This document shows, in pieces, positions 1,007 to 29,967 of a stretch of DNA of 64,000 nucleotides. Below the pieces are notes generated by a model. That model saw only the letters and a list, made by a program, of their open reading frames with translations, ran no database searches and was not told the DNA's origin. Positions within the stretch are counted from its first letter, which is position 1. Each line of letters starts with the position of its first letter. This DNA comes from Gammaproteobacteria bacterium (GTDB lineage Bacteria > Pseudomonadota > Gammaproteobacteria > Eutrophobiales > Eutrophobiaceae), in contig JAURNW010000009.1 in assembly GCA_030829985.1 (NCBI GenBank), positions 1-64,000 on the forward strand. The letters are read 5' to 3'. Made by a program: the position numbers and the translations under genes.

Positions 1007-1855
1007 ATGAAAAAATTTACAACGGCGTGTGTCACAAGCGCTCTTATATTTGGATCATCTATAGCTAATGCGGACATGACTAATTGGTTTGCAGAAACGG
1101 AAATAGCGGCCAACGTCAGACTGGCTAGTGACTATCAATTCTATGGTGCGTCACAAACAAGTGGTGCAGGTGGTAACGATCCTGGTACCACAATTCAAGG
1201 TGGTTTCGATATCACTTGGTTTACATTAGATGCCATAGGCGCTGATGTTTACTCTGGTGTGTTTGCTGCTAACGTCGAATGGGGTCGTGGCACCAATGAT
1301 CCAGCTGGACTTGAGTTTACGCACTATCACGGTATAGCGGGTGAATTTGGAGCCTCTGGTATTTCCTGGGATGTTGGTGCTATTAACTATACCTATCCTA
1401 ACCAGGATGCCGATCAGGGTTTTGCAGATGACTTTGACTACTGGGAATTTTATGGTGTGTTCGGTTATGGTTTTTCAGATGTGATGTTTGAACCTTCATT
1501 TAGTGTTGGTTATTACTATTCACCAGAATGGTTTGGATTTGGTGATGCAAGTCATCATATTCCAGTAAGTGTAGACTTTTCATTGCCTTATGGATTTGGT
1601 TTAAACGCGTTCTTTGGTCACCTGTCTCTCGATTTCAGTGATGCTAACTTAGCGGCTCAAACCACTGGCGCCGGTGGAACTGCTGATGAATATCAGTACT
1701 TTGGTGTTGGTATTAGTAAGACGATCTTAGGCGTTGATGTAGATGCTTCTTACACTGCATTATCAAGTGATAATGACTGTGCTCTTGTCCAGACTGGTAA
1801 TATTGGCGGTTCACAGTGTGGTGGTTTCATTTTTGGTGTGTCTAAATCATTCTAA
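1007..1855 (+). CDS. TorF family putative porin
   Basis: An outer-membrane protein of 282 residues. An N-terminal signal peptide (MKKFTTACVTSALIFGSSIANA, cut after residue 22) precedes a region rich in alternating Gly, Tyr, Phe and Asp, typical of a beta barrel, ending in the aromatic C-terminal signature VSKSF. Family features include an early ANVRLASDYQFYG segment and the C-terminal GVGISKTILGVDVDASYT strand pair. The substrate is not known from sequence. Its position in front of glnK-amtB and its sigma-54/NtrC-type promoter suggest it lets small nitrogen compounds into the periplasm under nitrogen limitation; that role is inferred. A strong terminator follows, so it is probably a monocistronic unit. 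Confidence 0.8.
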   Translation: MKKFTTACVTSALIFGSSIANADMTNWFAETEIAANVRLASDYQFYGASQTSGAGGNDPGTTIQGGFDITWFTLDAIGADVYSGVFAANVEWGRGTNDPAGLEFTHYHGIAGEFGASGISWDVGAINYTYPNQDADQGFADDFDYWEFYGVFGYGFSDVMFEPSFSVGYYYSPEWFGFGDASHHIPVSVDFSLPYGFGLNAFFGHLSLDFSDANLAAQTTGAGGTADEYQYFGVGISKTILGVDVDASYTALSSDNDCALVQTGNIGGSQCGGFIFGVSKSF

Positions 1856-1890
1856 TGATTTAGTTACAGAATTAAATTTTGTATAGATAA

Positions 1891-1917
1891 AAGCGGCCTT
1901 CGGGCCGCTTTTTTTAT
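1891..1917 (+). terminator. Intrinsic terminator of the porin gene
   Basis: A perfect 8-bp stem, AAGCGGCC/GGCCGCTT, closes a stable TTCG tetraloop and is followed by a run of T. It lies 36 bases after the porin stop. Confidence 0.92.
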
Positions 1918-2078
1918 GCATTCATTAATAAAGTTTTAAATTGATAGATCATTAAATAAATTTCTACATGGACATAATTTTTTCTTTATTTTAACTAAGG
2001 ATATTAGCTCTAATCTATCCTCTCTTTGAACTTACTAATGTGTTGTATTTTCTCTTATATTTTTATATTTGATATTAC

Positions 2079-2123
2079 GCACATAAAACGTGCGTTAAGA
2101 ATTTAATCGCACCAATATATTGC
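2079..2123 (+). promoter_or_regulatory. Two NtrC-like enhancer sites upstream of glnK
   Basis: The first site, GCAC-ATAAAAC-GTGC (2079-2093), is a perfect match to GCAC-N7-GTGC and extends to ACGCAC/GTGCGT. The second, GCAC-CAATATA-TTGC (2109-2123), has one mismatch. The centres are 30 bp apart. Relative to the transcription start predicted from the sigma-54 element (about 2225) they fall near -139 and -109. That is almost the placement of the two strong NtrC sites of E. coli glnA promoter 2, which is known from the literature. The flanking gap 1918-2383 otherwise shows only AT-rich DNA and the promoter. Confidence 0.72.
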
Positions 2124-2198
2124 GTACTCATAATGAAAGTTCGTGCCAGTTGCGTTAATCATTAAGGTAACTCTATGTAATATATAGACAAAAATGTT

Positions 2199-2214
2199 TG
2201 GCATGGATACTGCT
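2199..2214 (+). promoter_or_regulatory. Sigma-54 promoter of glnK-amtB
   Basis: TGGCATGGATACTGCT fits the -24/-12 consensus TGGCAYR-N4-YTGCW, with GG at 2200-2201 and GC at 2212-2213, 10 bases between them. The predicted transcript starts near 2225, leaving a leader of about 160 bases before glnK. Confidence 0.78.
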
Positions 2215-2323
2215 ATTTATATTATATAACTGCGCTATCTGCTTGGTTTTTGCTCAAGCTATAAACCAGGTAGAACAGTTGTAAAAATTATGGCTTGGAT
2301 AATTAACATCCAAATCCATGTAA

Positions 2324-2722
<399 letters not shown>

Positions 2723-2748
2723 CAAATAACCTTACTGGAGAAATAACG

Positions 2749-4029
2749 ATGGAAAATAATATTTTCGAATTACAGTACGCCATGGATACGTTTTATTTTC
2801 TGGTGTGTGGCGCACTGGTAATGTGGATGGCTGCTGGCTTTGCAATGTTGGAAGCTGGTTTAGTTCGTTCAAAAAACACGACAGAAATTTTAACTAAAAA
2901 CGTTGCTTTGTTTGCTGTGGCGTCAACGATGTACATGATTTGCGGTTATGACTTTATGTATGGTGGTGGCATGTTCCTTTCCGGTGTTGAAACCGTTGGG
3001 AACCTTGATGTAGCCGGGGCATTAGCAGCATCAGCTGAGAATGGTTTTGATGGTGATTCGGTTTATTCCGGCGCATCAGACTTTTTCTTTCAGGTAGTGT
3101 TCGTTGCTACTGCGATGTCTATTGTGTCAGGCGCAGTTGCAGAACGCATGAAGCTATGGGCATTTCTGGCCTTCGCAGTTGTTATGACTGGCCTTATCTA
3201 TCCAATGGAAGGTGGCTGGACTTGGGGTGGTAACTCTGTATTTGGTTTATATGAATTAAGCTACAGTGACTATGCTGGTTCCGGTATTGTGCATTTAGCG
3301 GGTGCAGCAGCTGCACTGGCCGGTGTCATAATTCTTGGTCCTCGAAAGGGTAAATATACTGCTGATGGTAAAGTTCGTGCTATACCGGGTGCAAATTTAC
3401 CGCTGGCAACTTTAGGAACCTTTATCCTTTGGATGGGATGGTTTGGTTTTAACGGTGGTTCAACCCTGAAGTTGGGCGGTATTGCTGTCGCTAACGAAGT
3501 TGCTTATGTGTTCTTGAATACCAATGCCGCAGCAGCGGGTGGTTTAATCGCAGCATTGATAGTGGCCAGAATATTATTTGGTAAAGCTGATTTGACCATG
3601 GCACTTAACGGAGCCTTGGCAGGACTAGTTGCTATTACAGCTGAGCCAGCTGATCCTACAGCATTACAAGCCACGCTAATTGGTGCTGCTGGTGGTGCGT
3701 TGGTTGTCTTTGCGATTATCACAATGGATAAGATCAAAATAGACGATCCGGTTGGTGCTATCTCTGTACACGGTGTGGTTGGTATTTGGGGTATCTTCGC
3801 GGTACTTATAACCGATGCCGACGCCACATTTAGTGGACAATTAGTTGGTATGCTGACTATCTTTGTCTGGGTGTTTGTCGCAAGTCTGATAACCTGGTTG
3901 GTAATTAAAGCCATCATTGGTATCAGGGTTAGCGAAGATGAAGAAATGGAAGGTGTTGACATTAGTGAATGTGGACAAGAAGCCTATCCAGAATTCACCT
4001 CTTCATCAGGTATGTCATCTACATCTTAG
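2749..4029 (+). CDS. amtB: Ammonium transporter, first copy
   Basis: A member of the Amt/Mep/Rh family, 426 residues with about 11 membrane segments. It conducts ammonium or ammonia across the inner membrane. The first helix carries the family signature (AGFAMLEAGLVRSKN, from about residue 29). The twin pore histidines are visible in SGIVHLAGAAAAL and ISVHGVVGIWG. There is no cleavable signal peptide; the protein starts with the short MENNIFELQYAMDT, unlike the second copy at 4700. The C-terminus is acidic and then Ser/Thr-rich (FTSSSGMSSTS). It is co-transcribed with the upstream glnK and ends at a terminator, which separates it from the second pair. Confidence 0.95.
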   Translation: MENNIFELQYAMDTFYFLVCGALVMWMAAGFAMLEAGLVRSKNTTEILTKNVALFAVASTMYMICGYDFMYGGGMFLSGVETVGNLDVAGALAASAENGFDGDSVYSGASDFFFQVVFVATAMSIVSGAVAERMKLWAFLAFAVVMTGLIYPMEGGWTWGGNSVFGLYELSYSDYAGSGIVHLAGAAAALAGVIILGPRKGKYTADGKVRAIPGANLPLATLGTFILWMGWFGFNGGSTLKLGGIAVANEVAYVFLNTNAAAAGGLIAALIVARILFGKADLTMALNGALAGLVAITAEPADPTALQATLIGAAGGALVVFAIITMDKIKIDDPVGAISVHGVVGIWGIFAVLITDADATFSGQLVGMLTIFVWVFVASLITWLVIKAIIGIRVSEDEEMEGVDISECGQEAYPEFTSSSGMSSTS

Positions 4030-4059
4030 TCCGCTAGATAAATTACCTTTAACATAAAA

Positions 4060-4087
4060 ACGGGCGCATTCTGCGCCCGTTTTTTTA
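4060..4087 (+). terminator. Intrinsic terminator after the first amtB
   Basis: The stem ACGGGCGCA/TGCGCCCGT encloses a TTC loop and is followed by seven T. It closes the first glnK-amtB operon and implies a separate promoter for the second pair in the 214 bases before 4302. No convincing sigma-54 site was found there, only a GTAC-N7-GTGC sequence at 4116-4130. Confidence 0.93.
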
Positions 4088-4271
4088 TGCACTCATAAAA
4101 GCTTAAATTAATCGCGTACTTATTAAGTGCCGAGAATAGTCTTTAAATAGGGCATAATCCCTTCATAAGCCTTTCACTTCCATGCTAATATTTACAAATA
4201 AGAAGAATCGCATCTAAAAATGCACCAAATTGTAAAGATTGATAGTCTTGTTAACCCAAAAACGAGCATAA

Positions 4272-24670: not shown

Positions 24671-24964
24671 TCAGGGTAATTTGATAACTGGCTTTTCTTT
24701 ATTCTTTTTATAAAGGGTAACTATATTTCCTATACCTTGTACAAGTTCAGCATGCGTGTCTTCACATATTTTATTTATTCCCGCATCACGTTCTTCACGT
24801 TCACCGAGTCGGCATTTTACCTTGATTAATTCATGCCGTTCCAATGCTTCATCTATTTCTTTAATAAGCCCTTTTGTTATGCCATGTTGACCAGCCCAGA
24901 CGACCGGTTTTAGATGGTGAGCGGCCTGGCGCAGGAATTTCTTTTGTGCATTATTAATTTTCAT
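24671..24964 (-). CDS. yhbY: Ribosome assembly RNA-binding protein YhbY
   Basis: A CRM-domain protein of 97 residues. YhbY binds pre-50S particles. The fold is recognisable by KKFLRQAAHHLKPVVWAGQHGITKGLIKEIDEAL, the GxxG-type loop, and the ELIKVKCRLGE segment followed by GNIVTLYKKN. In E. coli it lies between greA and rlmE; in this chromosome those two genes are neighbours at 62.7-63.9 kb without it, and it stands here behind the deacylase gene instead, 90 bases downstream. Confidence 0.92.
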   Translation of the reverse strand: MKINNAQKKFLRQAAHHLKPVVWAGQHGITKGLIKEIDEALERHELIKVKCRLGEREERDAGINKICEDTHAELVQGIGNIVTLYKKNKEKPVIKLP

Positions 24965-25053: not shown

Positions 25054-26337
25054 TTAATGAATCTCTTCTTCGTCGCCTGTCTGTATATCATATTCATTGT
25101 CAGGCTCATCTGATTCATCATCATCACTATCTATCATAGATGATGTATCGGACGATACGCCAATATGAAATGCCGCGTAACCAGGCAGCATAAACTGATT
25201 TAATGCCATGCCAAGCACACGACCTTTTACTGGAGATACTATTTTTAGTTGTTCAGTTGTTAGCGGGTTGATGATATAGCCGAGTAATTGATTGGTTTTT
25301 ACATTGGCACCAATTGCTACTTTCGACATGAGTATGCCACCACTATTCACTCTTACCCAACGCGAACCATAATAGATGGGTTGTGGTTCAAACCAGAGAT
25401 GCAGCTTCTTTAATATACCGAGATTACCAATCAGCGTATCAATTGTTTCTATACCAGACTCAACATATTCTTCCTGTAGTGAACCAGGTTGACCAAGTTC
25501 AAATGCAACGGTCGGAATTCCTGCTTGCGTTGCCGCCGCTCTTAAACTTTTACCATGCCCTGATTTGTGTAAGACCGCTGTTGAACCAAAGTGTGTGACA
25601 AACTCCTGGACCATTGGATTATTCATGTCCGCTCGTAATTGTGGCAAATTATTACGTTTAAATGATCCTGTATGAAAATCGACTACGTAATTACAATGTT
25701 TTATTATTTGTGTAAAAAATCGATATGCAATTCGTGATGCAGCACTTCCTCTCGGGTTTCCAGGAAAGTACCGGTTGAGATCACGCCTATCAGGTAGATA
25801 GCGTGAATTACCAGTGAATCCAAATATATTCACAATAGGGACACCGATAACTGTGCCATTAATTTCTGCGGGATCCAGATTGCGAATTACACGTCTGACA
25901 ATCTCAATACCATTTAATTCATCACCATGAATTGCAGCAACTAAACAAAGCACTGGTCCAGGCTTGCTTCCTCTCACGACTATGACGGGAGGTTTGACTG
26001 TTTTTCCGGAAAATGATTGTCCAGCAGACCAGCTGAGTTCTCTCAATTCTCCAGGTTGAACTACTTCTTTTAAAATAGTTAAAGGCGATTGCTCTGTTTG
26101 TTTGAGCTTGATCTCGGCCGATTCATTTTCTTTGATTAAATCTTCGATTGTCTCCGGCTCTTCGGGATATTCTGAAATATTTTGTTCAATTGTGATATTT
26201 AGATCGACAGGTATTTCTGGCGTTATAATCTCGATTTCGTTTGAGCCAGTTTCCTCAGCAGATAAATTGTTTGGAGAAACCAGAGGGCTTGTTATTAATA
26301 AAAACAATAAAATCTCTTTATAGATCTTTAAGTTCAT
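25054..26337 (-). CDS. Succinylglutamate desuccinylase/aspartoacylase family protein
   Basis: A zinc-carboxypeptidase-fold protein of about 427 residues. From the ATG used here (26337) it has a signal-like N-terminus (MNLKIYKEILLFLLITSPLV); an in-frame TTG at 26355 would add six residues. An acidic Glu/Ile-rich spacer (about 30-90) follows. The catalytic part carries the metal motif AAIHGDELNGIEIVR, RRDLNRYFPG, NYVVDFHTGS and a late FELGQPG. The C-terminus ends in a strongly acidic tail (DSDDDESDEPDNEYD). It probably removes an acyl or amino-acyl group in the periplasm. It sits 20 bases behind the ATP-grasp gene as last member of a four-gene cassette. Confidence 0.83.
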   Translation of the reverse strand: MNLKIYKEILLFLLITSPLVSPNNLSAEETGSNEIEIITPEIPVDLNITIEQNISEYPEEPETIEDLIKENESAEIKLKQTEQSPLTILKEVVQPGELRELSWSAGQSFSGKTVKPPVIVVRGSKPGPVLCLVAAIHGDELNGIEIVRRVIRNLDPAEINGTVIGVPIVNIFGFTGNSRYLPDRRDLNRYFPGNPRGSAASRIAYRFFTQIIKHCNYVVDFHTGSFKRNNLPQLRADMNNPMVQEFVTHFGSTAVLHKSGHGKSLRAAATQAGIPTVAFELGQPGSLQEEYVESGIETIDTLIGNLGILKKLHLWFEPQPIYYGSRWVRVNSGGILMSKVAIGANVKTNQLLGYIINPLTTEQLKIVSPVKGRVLGMALNQFMLPGYAAFHIGVSSDTSSMIDSDDDESDEPDNEYDIQTGDEEEIH

Positions 26338-26357
26338 AATTTTATTAATATTCAATT

Positions 26358-27293
26358 TTATAAAATAGTTTGAATTATCGATATTCGATCTTCTATTTTT
26401 TCAGGAAGCGTTTTTATTTTATCAATGGCATCAAGGCGATGTTTTAAGCCTTGTCCATTTGCTATTTGTATCGCGAGTCCTGGCCTTGCATTAAGTTCAA
26501 GTATAAGTGGGCCCAATTCTGCATCGAGGACAATATCTACTCCAAGGTAACCTAATGGAGCAAGCTGATAACAACTTGCGGATAAGAATAATAGTTGCTG
26601 CCAGTCAGGGATGTGTACATCAGATAGCGCAGAACCAAAATCAGGATGTTCATATACACGGCGGTCATTACAAACAGCGAGTGTGGTAGTACCCGTCATT
26701 AAATTAATGCCAACACCTACAGCGCCTTGATGCAGGTTTGCTTTACCATCTGATTGTTGTGTTGGCAGACGTAACATAGCCATCGCAGGAATGCCTTTGT
26801 AGATCAACATACGTATATCGGGCACACCTTGATAACTGATTGAATTAAATATTGGATCGAATTTGACTCGGTATTCAATGATTGCTTGATCGACTTGACC
26901 ACCAAGGCTATAGACACCGCCCAGTATATTCTCTATATGATATCTAATCGCTTCCGAATTAATTGCAGTATTGTTTGGTTTAATAAACAAATCCCCACGA
27001 CGATTATCAATAACCAGTATGCCTTTACCACCACTACCATGAGCAGGTTTAACCACAAAATCTTTTTTATCATGAATTATTTGATTGAACGAATTTATTT
27101 CGTGGACTGTAGTAATTAAGCCGTATAATTTGGGAACAGCAATATTAGCTTCTTCAGCCAGTTGTTTTGTATAGACTTTATCATCGACAAACTTATAAAG
27201 TTTCCGAGGGTTATGCGGCATAACATAACTACGATTACGGGCATTGATGCCCACAACACCTGCTTCACGAAGTTTTTGTATTCGTTTTAGCAT
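26358..27293 (-). CDS. Alpha-L-glutamate ligase-like ATP-grasp protein
   Basis: A cytosolic ATP-grasp enzyme of 311 residues related to RimK. ATP-binding blocks are visible as FVVKPAHGSGGKGILVI (about residues 80-96), and the metal-binding end as YLGVDIVLDAELGPLILELNARPGL. Such ligases join an amino acid, typically glutamate, to a carboxyl group on a peptide or small molecule; the real substrate is unknown. Its first codons overlap the end of the 7TM gene by 29 bases, showing tight coupling. The set retropepsin, 7TM transglutaminase, ATP-grasp, deacylase recurs in gammaproteobacteria (established family knowledge). Confidence 0.85.
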   Translation of the reverse strand: MLKRIQKLREAGVVGINARNRSYVMPHNPRKLYKFVDDKVYTKQLAEEANIAVPKLYGLITTVHEINSFNQIIHDKKDFVVKPAHGSGGKGILVIDNRRGDLFIKPNNTAINSEAIRYHIENILGGVYSLGGQVDQAIIEYRVKFDPIFNSISYQGVPDIRMLIYKGIPAMAMLRLPTQQSDGKANLHQGAVGVGINLMTGTTTLAVCNDRRVYEHPDFGSALSDVHIPDWQQLLFLSASCYQLAPLGYLGVDIVLDAELGPLILELNARPGLAIQIANGQGLKHRLDAIDKIKTLPEKIEDRISIIQTIL

Positions 27294-28845
27294 TTTTATC
27301 TTCTTCGTTGGCGAGATCTTTGAATCTGATTAATTCACTAATACGATAACCTGTGTATCTACCTGCGGTTAGAAAAATTGCTAATATAAATAATAAGAGC
27401 TCAGGAAAATTAAACATAAGATGTTCAAGTTGATTATTAGTCATCACAAAATAGCCTATTATTGCGATAAACAGACTGCCCAGACCTTCTTTTATCGCAC
27501 CAAAGGCCCCGGCTTCTTCCCATGTAATTGATAAACGTTCTATAACCATAGTCAGTATAACTATGGGAAATAATGCTATTGATATACCACGATCAATATC
27601 AAGGTCATTACTCATTAGACTGATAGTTAACATCAATACTATGACCATGACCAGAACGGCACTGAGTCGTGGCACGAGCAGTAGATTCAGTCGTTCGAGA
27701 AAAAAACGAAACGCCAAGCCACTGCCTGTTATAAGGCAGAATAGAATGATGCCCCATAATAATTCTGTTTCTCTAAATGCCAGAGATATTAGGATCGGCA
27801 TAAACGTACCGAAGCAGGGTACTCCCACGACCGTACGCATCAGGACGACGACAAGCGCGCCGAGAGGAATCATTAGTAATATCTGGTATACATGTTGGGA
27901 CGCAAGCGCCAGCTTATATAAGGACCAGCTATTTAGAAATGATTGTTTTGTCTTTGCACGTTCTTGCGATATGTCAGCTTCCGAATAAGGACGTTGTGAT
28001 AAAGTAAAACGAAGGTGTTCGTTTCTCCCGCCCTCAACATTTAACATTGGTTCGTCGCTGATACTCCAACGCATGAAGTTAGAGGGGTAACCTTTATTAC
28101 CCGAAAGCGGATCAAAGCCTTCCCATGTTTGTCCATTATGTACTTCAAGCCAGGAAATCAGTTTTGCATCTTTGACTCCATCATCCAGGCTGATTCCATT
28201 AACCATGCGTGATGAAATTCGTGCCCCTTCCAAAACATACATGATGCGTTTAACCCATTGCTCTGTTCCGGGAACAGCTCCTTTTTGTATAACAAAAATA
28301 TTTTTGTTCGGTGATGGATCATTAAGTTGTACCAGCAATTGACTGACAAAAGTAAATATATCCGCTGATTCGCTACGCACTTTCCCCAATGTATCTTCTA
28401 TTGCAGAAGCCAATGGTTCTTCATACTCGGGTTTTACTGGAGCAACCGGGATCTTATATTTAATAGTATCGCTCTTAGAGACAGAATCCTCGGGAACGAC
28501 TTCTATTCGATAATAAAGACGTTGTTTTCCCTTTGCATTTCGAATCGACCATTCAGCTCGACGGTCTTTTTGCTTGCTGGTAACATTCAGGCCATAGTTA
28601 CGGGAAACAAAAAACTCATCCAGCTTTAAAAAATTTCCAAGGTTGTCTGGAATATCAAGGTTGACAGTAGACGAGCGACCCAAACCATCAAATTCAACAC
28701 GTGCTTCAACGGCCCAGATTGAAGAGGTTTGATTTGGAACTAGCGGGAGTCCTAAAGTTTTGACCTTTGCATACATTAAGCCCAGGCTGGTTAAGGCGAG
28801 CAATAGACAAAATATTTTAACATTTAACTCACGCATCACTGACAT
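27265..28845 (-). CDS. Inactive transglutaminase fused to seven transmembrane helices
   Basis: A membrane protein of 526 residues. A hydrophobic N-terminal anchor (about residues 9-26) is followed by a periplasmic region that ends in a transglutaminase-like fold (about 165-280: VSRMVNGISLDD and WLEVHNGQTWEGFDPLSG). The catalytic Cys expected before the WVKRIMYVLEGARISS region is absent, so this domain is probably a binding module. The C-terminal 200 residues hold about seven helices (from ILLMIPLGALVVVLM on) and a basic tail. It likely presents or moves a substrate across the membrane for the neighbouring ligase and hydrolases; that role is inferred. Confidence 0.85.
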   Translation of the reverse strand: MSVMRELNVKIFCLLLALTSLGLMYAKVKTLGLPLVPNQTSSIWAVEARVEFDGLGRSSTVNLDIPDNLGNFLKLDEFFVSRNYGLNVTSKQKDRRAEWSIRNAKGKQRLYYRIEVVPEDSVSKSDTIKYKIPVAPVKPEYEEPLASAIEDTLGKVRSESADIFTFVSQLLVQLNDPSPNKNIFVIQKGAVPGTEQWVKRIMYVLEGARISSRMVNGISLDDGVKDAKLISWLEVHNGQTWEGFDPLSGNKGYPSNFMRWSISDEPMLNVEGGRNEHLRFTLSQRPYSEADISQERAKTKQSFLNSWSLYKLALASQHVYQILLMIPLGALVVVLMRTVVGVPCFGTFMPILISLAFRETELLWGIILFCLITGSGLAFRFFLERLNLLLVPRLSAVLVMVIVLMLTISLMSNDLDIDRGISIALFPIVILTMVIERLSITWEEAGAFGAIKEGLGSLFIAIIGYFVMTNNQLEHLMFNFPELLLFILAIFLTAGRYTGYRISELIRFKDLANEEDKNAKTNTKTS

Positions 28846-28887
28846 GGTTTCCGGCTAGTGTGTATGGCCGTAAATTATAAGGGAGGA

Positions 28888-29430
28888 CTACTTTTTATGT
28901 AAGCAGGATTTATTTGCAGTAAAGGTTTTGCCAGGATCTATAAGCACATTATCTTTTAATGTCCTGCGACCTAACAGTAGCGGGTAATGAAAGTTTGATC
29001 GGTCTGTCAGTGTAACGGGAGTTTTATAATTTTTCCCATTGAGACAAAATTCCATCTCGATTACATAACGTATCATGCTATCCCCAACATGTTCTTTGAT
29101 TTTCGTTTCTCTAATAACAGGTCTTTCAACGACAATCTTTTTTTCAGACTGATTGTTCTTTTTATTGATTGGTTGGGTCAAAGTAAACCTTACCCATAGC
29201 TCATCATCCATATGATATTCCTCAATCTGGGTTGCATGGATGGAACTAGTGAGGGCGCCCGAATCCAGTTTTGCTCTTACTTTAATACCCCACGGTTTAA
29301 TTAAAGCAGACTCTAACCAGCCTAATACTTCAGGTTCGGCATTTACATAGGGATGAAATAAAACTGATAACAACAGTACGGCATTCGAAAGGATTTTTAT
29401 GATCATGTTCTGAGTATAATTTAGCTGCAT
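28888..29430 (-). CDS. Retropepsin-like aspartic protease (RimB/RloA type, 'ATP-dependent zinc protease')
   Basis: A secreted or membrane-anchored protein of 180 residues. It has a signal peptide (hydrophobic residues about 10-30, ending VNA) and a retropepsin fold with the active-site LDSGALTSSIHA (Asp-Ser-Gly) and a second conserved block PLLLGRRTLKDNVLIDP. The database label 'ATP-dependent zinc protease' is historical; the fold is that of an aspartic protease. An inner ATG at 29406 would give a neater signal peptide. First gene of the four-gene cassette that runs leftward to 25054. Confidence 0.83.
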   Translation of the reverse strand: MQLNYTQNMIIKILSNAVLLLSVLFHPYVNAEPEVLGWLESALIKPWGIKVRAKLDSGALTSSIHATQIEEYHMDDELWVRFTLTQPINKKNNQSEKKIVVERPVIRETKIKEHVGDSMIRYVIEMEFCLNGKNYKTPVTLTDRSNFHYPLLLGRRTLKDNVLIDPGKTFTANKSCLHKK

Positions 29431-29559: not shown

Positions 29560-29967
29560 TTATTGCGAGGGAATCATGCTAATACAATCAACCGGGCAAG
29601 GTGCGATGCAGAGCTGGCAGCCAGTGCAATAGGAATTAATGACGCTATGCATTTGTTTTGGGGCGCCAAGAATGGCATCTACCGGACAGGCAGCAATACA
29701 TTTCACACAACCAATACAATGCTCTTCATGAATGAATGCGATACGTGGTTCATCATATTTATCTGTTTCTTTATATAGTGGTTTGATCGGCAATCCTGTT
29801 GCTGCTGATAATGCCTCTACTGTTTCAATGCCGCCAGGTAAACATCGATTAATATCTGCTTCACTATTGACTATCGCCTCTGCATACGGTTGGCAGCCAT
29901 TAAAACCACAATCACGACATTGCGTTTGCGGTAGCAGTTTATCAATAGACTCAATATCTTTATTCAT
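29560..29967 (-). CDS. rnfB: RnfB-like iron-sulfur protein (soluble, short form)
   Basis: A ferredoxin-type protein of 135 residues. Residues about 10-60 form the RnfB-specific 4Fe-4S domain (LPQTQCRDCGFNGCQPYAEAI). Two classical 4Fe-4S motifs follow: HCIGCVKCIAACPVDAILG and YCTGCQLCIAPCPVDCISM. RnfB/RsxB of E. coli is about 190 residues with an N-terminal membrane helix; this protein lacks that helix, and none of rnfACDGE is nearby. It is therefore either a soluble electron carrier derived from RnfB or a partner of an Rnf complex encoded elsewhere. It follows metG by 44 bases and may be co-transcribed with it. Confidence 0.88.
   Translation of the reverse strand: MNKDIESIDKLLPQTQCRDCGFNGCQPYAEAIVNSEADINRCLPGGIETVEALSAATGLPIKPLYKETDKYDEPRIAFIHEEHCIGCVKCIAACPVDAILGAPKQMHSVINSYCTGCQLCIAPCPVDCISMIPSQ

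Follow-up and report, generated by a model that had tools for sequence, protein, structure and literature searches.

Four closely packed genes, coding for two exported hydrolases, a membrane protein and a cytoplasmic ligase, raise the question of whether they work as one system and what part the last of them would play in it. They lie in a stretch of 64,000 nucleotides (here called the window) of a Gammaproteobacteria bacterium contig. The operon is real and conserved, and three of its genes have already been characterized in a relative, as rloABC. The fourth codes for a hydrolase that we call RloD, a name coined here for convenience. The rlo and rim papers seem to report neither its link with RloB nor its cytoplasmic counterpart in rim operons, and we found no AstE/AspA hydrolase mentioned in either of them (PMC12239564, PMC11957791). 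A literature search for a published link of the hydrolase to rlo or rim found none, an earlier mention being possible.

Gene identities and the rlo system

The four genes and their flanks are as follows.

28888..29430, minus strand: rloA, exported retropepsin-like aspartic peptidase, 180 aa (PF05618, 5.2e-38)
27265..28845, minus strand: rloB, inactive transglutaminase plus 7TM, 526 aa (PF14400, 9e-46; PF14402, 1e-95)
26358..27293, minus strand: rloC, cytoplasmic ATP-grasp protein, alpha-L-glutamate ligase-like, 311 aa (PF14397, 3.3e-86; TIGR02291, 429 bits, cut-off 314)
25054..26337 (from ATG), minus strand: rloD, exported AstE/AspA-type zinc hydrolase (PF24827, 1.8e-40)
29560-29967: ferredoxin-type gene (flank)
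24671-24964: yhbY (flank)

An ORF check of the window found the four ORFs side by side on the minus strand, and the single direction, coordinates and spacings given in the original prediction were all reproduced. Transcription runs from rloA through rloB and rloC to rloD, with a 42-base gap between rloA and rloB, a 29-base overlap between rloB and rloC, and a 20-base gap before the ATG of rloD. The rloD ORF reaches 26355 if read from a TTG start, and RloD residues are numbered from that TTG. The domain matches of all four proteins are far over the cut-offs, and the Pfam and NCBIfam assignments are unambiguous. The predicted locations also held, with signal-peptide-like N termini on the retropepsin and the hydrolase and none on the ligase. 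Promoter and terminator scans around the four-gene set gave nothing better than shuffled sequences. The yhbY gene adjoins the operon in one relative of the genus too (L023) and not in another (L021), so the site of the operon within the genus is not fixed.

The signal peptide of RloA is MQLNYTQNMIIKILSNAVLLLSVLFHPYVNA, followed by EP, and its active-site motif is KLDSGALTS. The nearest NCBIfam models are RloA3 (145 bits), RloA2 (98), RloA1 (90) and RimB (74), and solved structures are available for RloA relatives (9g58 and 9g59). Both window proteins fall below the NCBI cut-offs for the named proteins, RloA with 145 of 210 bits for RloA3 and RloB with 411 of 900 bits for NCBIfam RloB; the high cut-off of the latter suggests that the model is narrow. 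The locus has the RloB domain pair, a retropepsin with a signal peptide upstream and an ATP-grasp ligase-like protein downstream, and it is an operon-level homolog of rlo; we do not call it the same ortholog. A search of the same genome for PF14401 (RLAN) gave no match, and none of the controls matched either.

RloB consists of an N-terminal TM helix, a periplasmic inactive-transglutaminase domain at approximately residues 40 to 300 and a C-terminal 7TM domain (AlphaFold2 model, pLDDT 91.8). A membrane-spanning 7TM protein with a periplasmic inactive transglutaminase had been predicted, and the PF14400 and PF14402 matches agree with this; the position of the catalytic His is Ile in the window protein and not predominantly His among 55 homologs. 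In a structural comparison of the model, the periplasmic domain matched 3isr (Z 14.9). Foldseek with the RloB model matched only the transglutaminase part, the TM domain being without a convincing match, and RND-pump fragments were rejected as relatives of that domain (Z ~6, within noise). Comparison of the TM domain with CapC/PgsC (PF14102) gave an hhalign probability of at most 7%, with a score close to that of the best shuffled or reversed decoys. As a separate observation, several Pseudomonadota (20 loci) code for proteins of ~1080 aa with two tandem CapC-like (PF14102) domains and a large C-terminal region.

The rloABC genes were described in Pseudomonas aeruginosa in 2025 as coding for an exported retropepsin, an inactive transglutaminase-7TM protein and a cytoplasmic ATP-grasp protein (Lormand, mBio, PMC12239564). 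In vitro, the exported RloA peptidases cut stretches of 8 or 10 Glu and leave those of 6 or fewer intact; loss of all three RloA proteins leads to hypo-osmotic sensitivity and to biofilm, antibiotic and cell-shape defects, and a beta-lactam phenotype is among those of rlo mutants (PMC12239564). Deletion of rloB or rloC rescues the defects of RloA loss, fully or in part (PMC12239564), which is most naturally understood if RloB and RloC produce or supply something whose removal falls to RloA. An rloB homolog has also turned up as a vesiculation mutant of Shewanella (PMC12096838). The statement in the original prediction that substrate and role are not established therefore no longer fully holds for three of the genes, with hypo-osmotic tolerance, biofilm, cell shape and cleavage of runs of at least 8 Glu published; its outline, in which the ligase adds glutamate, the membrane protein handles the product and the exported hydrolases reverse the modification, agrees with the published genetics and biochemistry (PMC12239564).

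Association of RloD with RloB

Linkage was looked at in other genomes, in 70 canonical RloB loci. RloC lies directly downstream of RloB in all 70 and a retropepsin directly upstream in 65, so the rloABC arrangement is not due to chance. The fourth gene behaves differently, as a hydrolase follows rloC in just 10 of the 70 loci, which rules out a fixed four-gene operon. Conservation of linkage, on which the proposed cassette depended, is thus found for rloA-rloB-rloC and not for rloD, although the latter co-occurs with rloB genome-wide.

For this co-occurrence, 15 exported hydrolases encoded within or close to rlo loci were aligned into a profile (A1), and the same 370 gammaproteobacterial genomes, of varying completeness, were searched with it and with the RloB family. 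RloD-type enzymes were called above 450 bits, the types being split by the gap in bit score down to the next matches (348 bits or less). RloB was present in 83 of the 370 genomes and an RloD-type enzyme in 21, all of which were RloB positive (hypergeometric, 2.6e-15, relatedness not corrected for). These 21 genomes span ~15 families, and in roughly half of them the rloD gene does not adjoin rlo. Of 12 genomes of the window's genus, the 3 that have RloB are also the 3 that have RloD, and within the family, RloD is found in 8 of 10 RloB-positive genomes versus none of 27 RloB-negative ones. A third test took 50 named genomes, picked by RloD similarity, in which RloD lies away from rlo; RloB was encoded elsewhere in 49, the lone exception being a metagenome-assembled genome.

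On the RloB tree, a minimum of 10 changes is required to account for where RloD is present and a minimum of 4 for its operonic placement, and the former number indicates that the association is not one inherited event. RloD must be dispensable or replaced in many genomes, as 62 of the 83 RloB-positive ones have no RloD-type enzyme. Because the two co-occur genome-wide, linked or not, we regard the hydrolase as a functional, though optional, partner of RloB. Could it instead be an unrelated neighbor with an independent role? Its rarity after rloC would fit this, as would the lineage-specific genes that RloD adjoins elsewhere (an LpxL-like acyltransferase, gltX), which were the only neighbors found for unlinked copies, none of them conserved. 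The strict co-occurrence with RloB, kept even when the genes are unlinked (49/50, 21/21 in the class and the same 3/12 in the genus), makes such independence very improbable. On these genomic patterns, the exported hydrolase is probably the missing fourth part of the rlo system. We also observed, in Woeseiaceae and related contigs (nine cases), an LpxL-like acyltransferase gene 13 to 59 bases after the unlinked exported hydrolase.

Relatives and active site of RloD

The genome of the window also carries a rimB-rimK pair followed directly by a cytoplasmic AstE/AspA hydrolase (L029, G000:C34:1-6000, 1665-4094). Such rim-type hydrolases adjoin rimK in 16 of 20 sampled loci, and we found no mention of this third gene of the rim set in PMC11957791 or PMC10092738. 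By a rule based on hydropathy rather than a trained predictor, an N-terminal hydrophobic stretch is present in 84 of 86 RLO-type hydrolases versus 0 of 33 RIM-type ones. The two types are sister families and split on a fully supported branch, the single outgroup being too distant to root the tree. The combination of endopeptidase, glutamate ligase and AstE/AspA hydrolase thus recurs on either side of the inner membrane, and because a cytoplasmic version of it exists, the exported set can be read as the periplasm-facing counterpart of the rim module. Two relatives have the rimB-rimK-hydrolase set directly upstream of rloABC (L018, 1-7774; L022, 2112-7698), and in two others (L102 and L103) a divergent RloB-like gene adjoins such a set on the opposite strand. 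In many of the cytoplasmic hydrolases, an acidic stretch is followed by a terminal PP-I-V/L-like tail that may serve for docking (for example, ...NYDPATDINSPEEPPIL at the C terminus of the rim-type hydrolase in the window's own genome).

RloD has the complete active site of the AstE/AspA (M14-type) family, with an H-x-x-E...H zinc site (H143, E146 and H228), the N194-R195 carboxylate site and the catalytic E286, each kept by 94% or more of the members of both hydrolase families, and the model has the fold of this family. The AlphaFold2 model (overall pLDDT 75.6, with high values in the core) has a disordered linker and a disordered acidic tail. The acidic C terminus, taken at first for an unusual trait, turned out to be common, the last 30 residues having a net acidity of 6 or more in 62 of 86 exported and 23 of 33 cytoplasmic relatives. 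Seven exported relatives have a linker motif, [VI]AP.[LV]DLK, after the signal peptide, which is absent from the window protein.

The model is closest to DoeB, 3cdx and related AstE/AspA enzymes (Z 29 to 32; DoeB, 29 to 31). It also matches CphZ, which hydrolyzes cyanophycin dipeptides (Z 26.6, 15% identity in the structural alignment), and, more distantly, the M14 carboxypeptidases Csd4 (Z 15) and CCP5 (Z 14), the latter a deglutamylase. Two names were rejected for RloD: the DoeB deacetylase, as TIGR02994 gives 69 bits against an equivalog cut-off of 403, and CphZ, as the likeness is structural only and neither membership of that sequence family nor a cyanophycin gene cluster was found. None of the four genes reached the cyanophycin synthetase or cyanophycinase cut-offs.

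The substrate cannot be deduced from fold and family, since N-acyl deacylases share this fold. Rather than trimming the chain, RloD could be a genuine deacylase, taking an N-acyl cap off an N-acylated Glu oligomer made by RloC or freeing the primer from it. Its closest solved relative of known function, DoeB, is an N-acetyl-diaminobutyrate deacetylase, its match to TIGR02994 is weak but present, and in other organisms N-acyl amino acids are elongated by enzymes of the RimK fold. We nevertheless regard this as unlikely. R208, R234, R241 and R272 are common to the RloD and rim-type families, whereas neither DoeB nor 3cdx has an Arg aligned with R234, R241 or R272 in the profile alignment; this pattern fits, though it does not prove, an acidic substrate. 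Moreover, the known products of RimK, Glu tails on S6 and free poly-Glu (PMC11957791), need no cap.

A role in the cell wall, with RloD as a Csd4-like stem-peptide carboxypeptidase and RloC and RloB adding Glu to wall or envelope substrates, would bring together the Csd4 match and the cell-shape and beta-lactam phenotypes of rlo mutants (PMC12239564). The Csd4 match is far poorer than that to DoeB or CphZ, the sister family of RloD adjoins rimK and has no signal peptides, and RloA requires 8-Glu runs, which peptidoglycan does not have; we judge such a role quite improbable.

A proposed periplasm-facing polyglutamate cycle and its known parallels

We think it rather probable that these genes form an rlo operon extended by a fourth enzyme, in which RloC makes, RloB presents or exports, RloA cuts and RloD finishes a glutamate product. 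Cytoplasmic RloC would join glutamates through alpha linkages into a polymer or tail. This product may be received, presented or exported by RloB, which sits in the inner membrane and has a periplasmic domain, and periplasmic RloA would then cut the long glutamate runs. As RloA spares runs of 6 Glu or fewer, it should leave short oligomers, from which the exported M14-fold RloD may remove C-terminal residues, or which it may hydrolyze, to give free glutamate. Such a finishing role has a precedent, because CphZ finishes cyanophycin, itself made by an ATP-grasp enzyme.

It is possible, if doubtful, that RloA and RloD act on Glu tails of specific envelope proteins (protein polyglutamylation) rather than on a free polymer. 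RimK and RimB target the C terminus of S6 (PMC11957791), and RloA cleaves Glu-tailed S6 in vitro (PMC12239564). However, a run of 8 Glu was not seen in any exported protein of P. aeruginosa (PMC12239564), which leaves this reading without a known genome-encoded target; and with RloC in the cytoplasm, any target would need to be modified before export.

Taking the four-enzyme reading further, we tentatively propose that a periplasm-facing polyglutamate cycle in Gammaproteobacteria mirrors the cytoplasmic rimK-rimB-hydrolase cycle, that exported poly-alpha-glutamate would be an osmoregulated periplasmic polymer, and that these AstE/AspA hydrolases may be a new polyglutamate-finishing family. The 2025 rlo work left the product and its disposal as questions. 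An exported hydrolase that tracks RloB and has a cytoplasmic rim twin points to full breakdown of Glu oligomers in both compartments. RloD is also a defined enzyme to assay, and deletion mutants might accumulate, and so reveal, the missing substrate.

Among known systems, the closest is rloABC of P. aeruginosa (PMC12239564), which shares with the window locus the exported retropepsin, transglutaminase-7TM protein and cytoplasmic ATP-grasp protein in one operon. The exported AstE/AspA hydrolase of the window goes unmentioned there, and a single RloA accompanies RimB in the window's genome, compared with three RloA proteins in P. aeruginosa. The rimB-rimK (rimABK) system likewise pairs a poly-Glu-cutting retropepsin with an ATP-grasp alpha-L-glutamate ligase (PMC11957791, PMC10092738), and in many gammaproteobacteria a cytoplasmic hydrolase of the sister family of RloD comes next; it differs in being cytoplasmic, lacking RloB and having ribosomal protein S6 as its target. 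DoeB/EutE shares the fold and zinc site of RloD, but it belongs to cytoplasmic ectoine catabolism and is without R234, R241 and R272. Cyanophycin metabolism (CphA, cyanophycinase and CphZ) offers the parallel of a nonribosomal polymer made by an ATP-grasp enzyme, with one peptidase that cuts the backbone and an AstE/AspA-family enzyme, CphZ, that finishes the short products, although there the polymer is of Asp-Arg, the compartment is the cytoplasm, and neither a retropepsin nor a membrane protein takes part.
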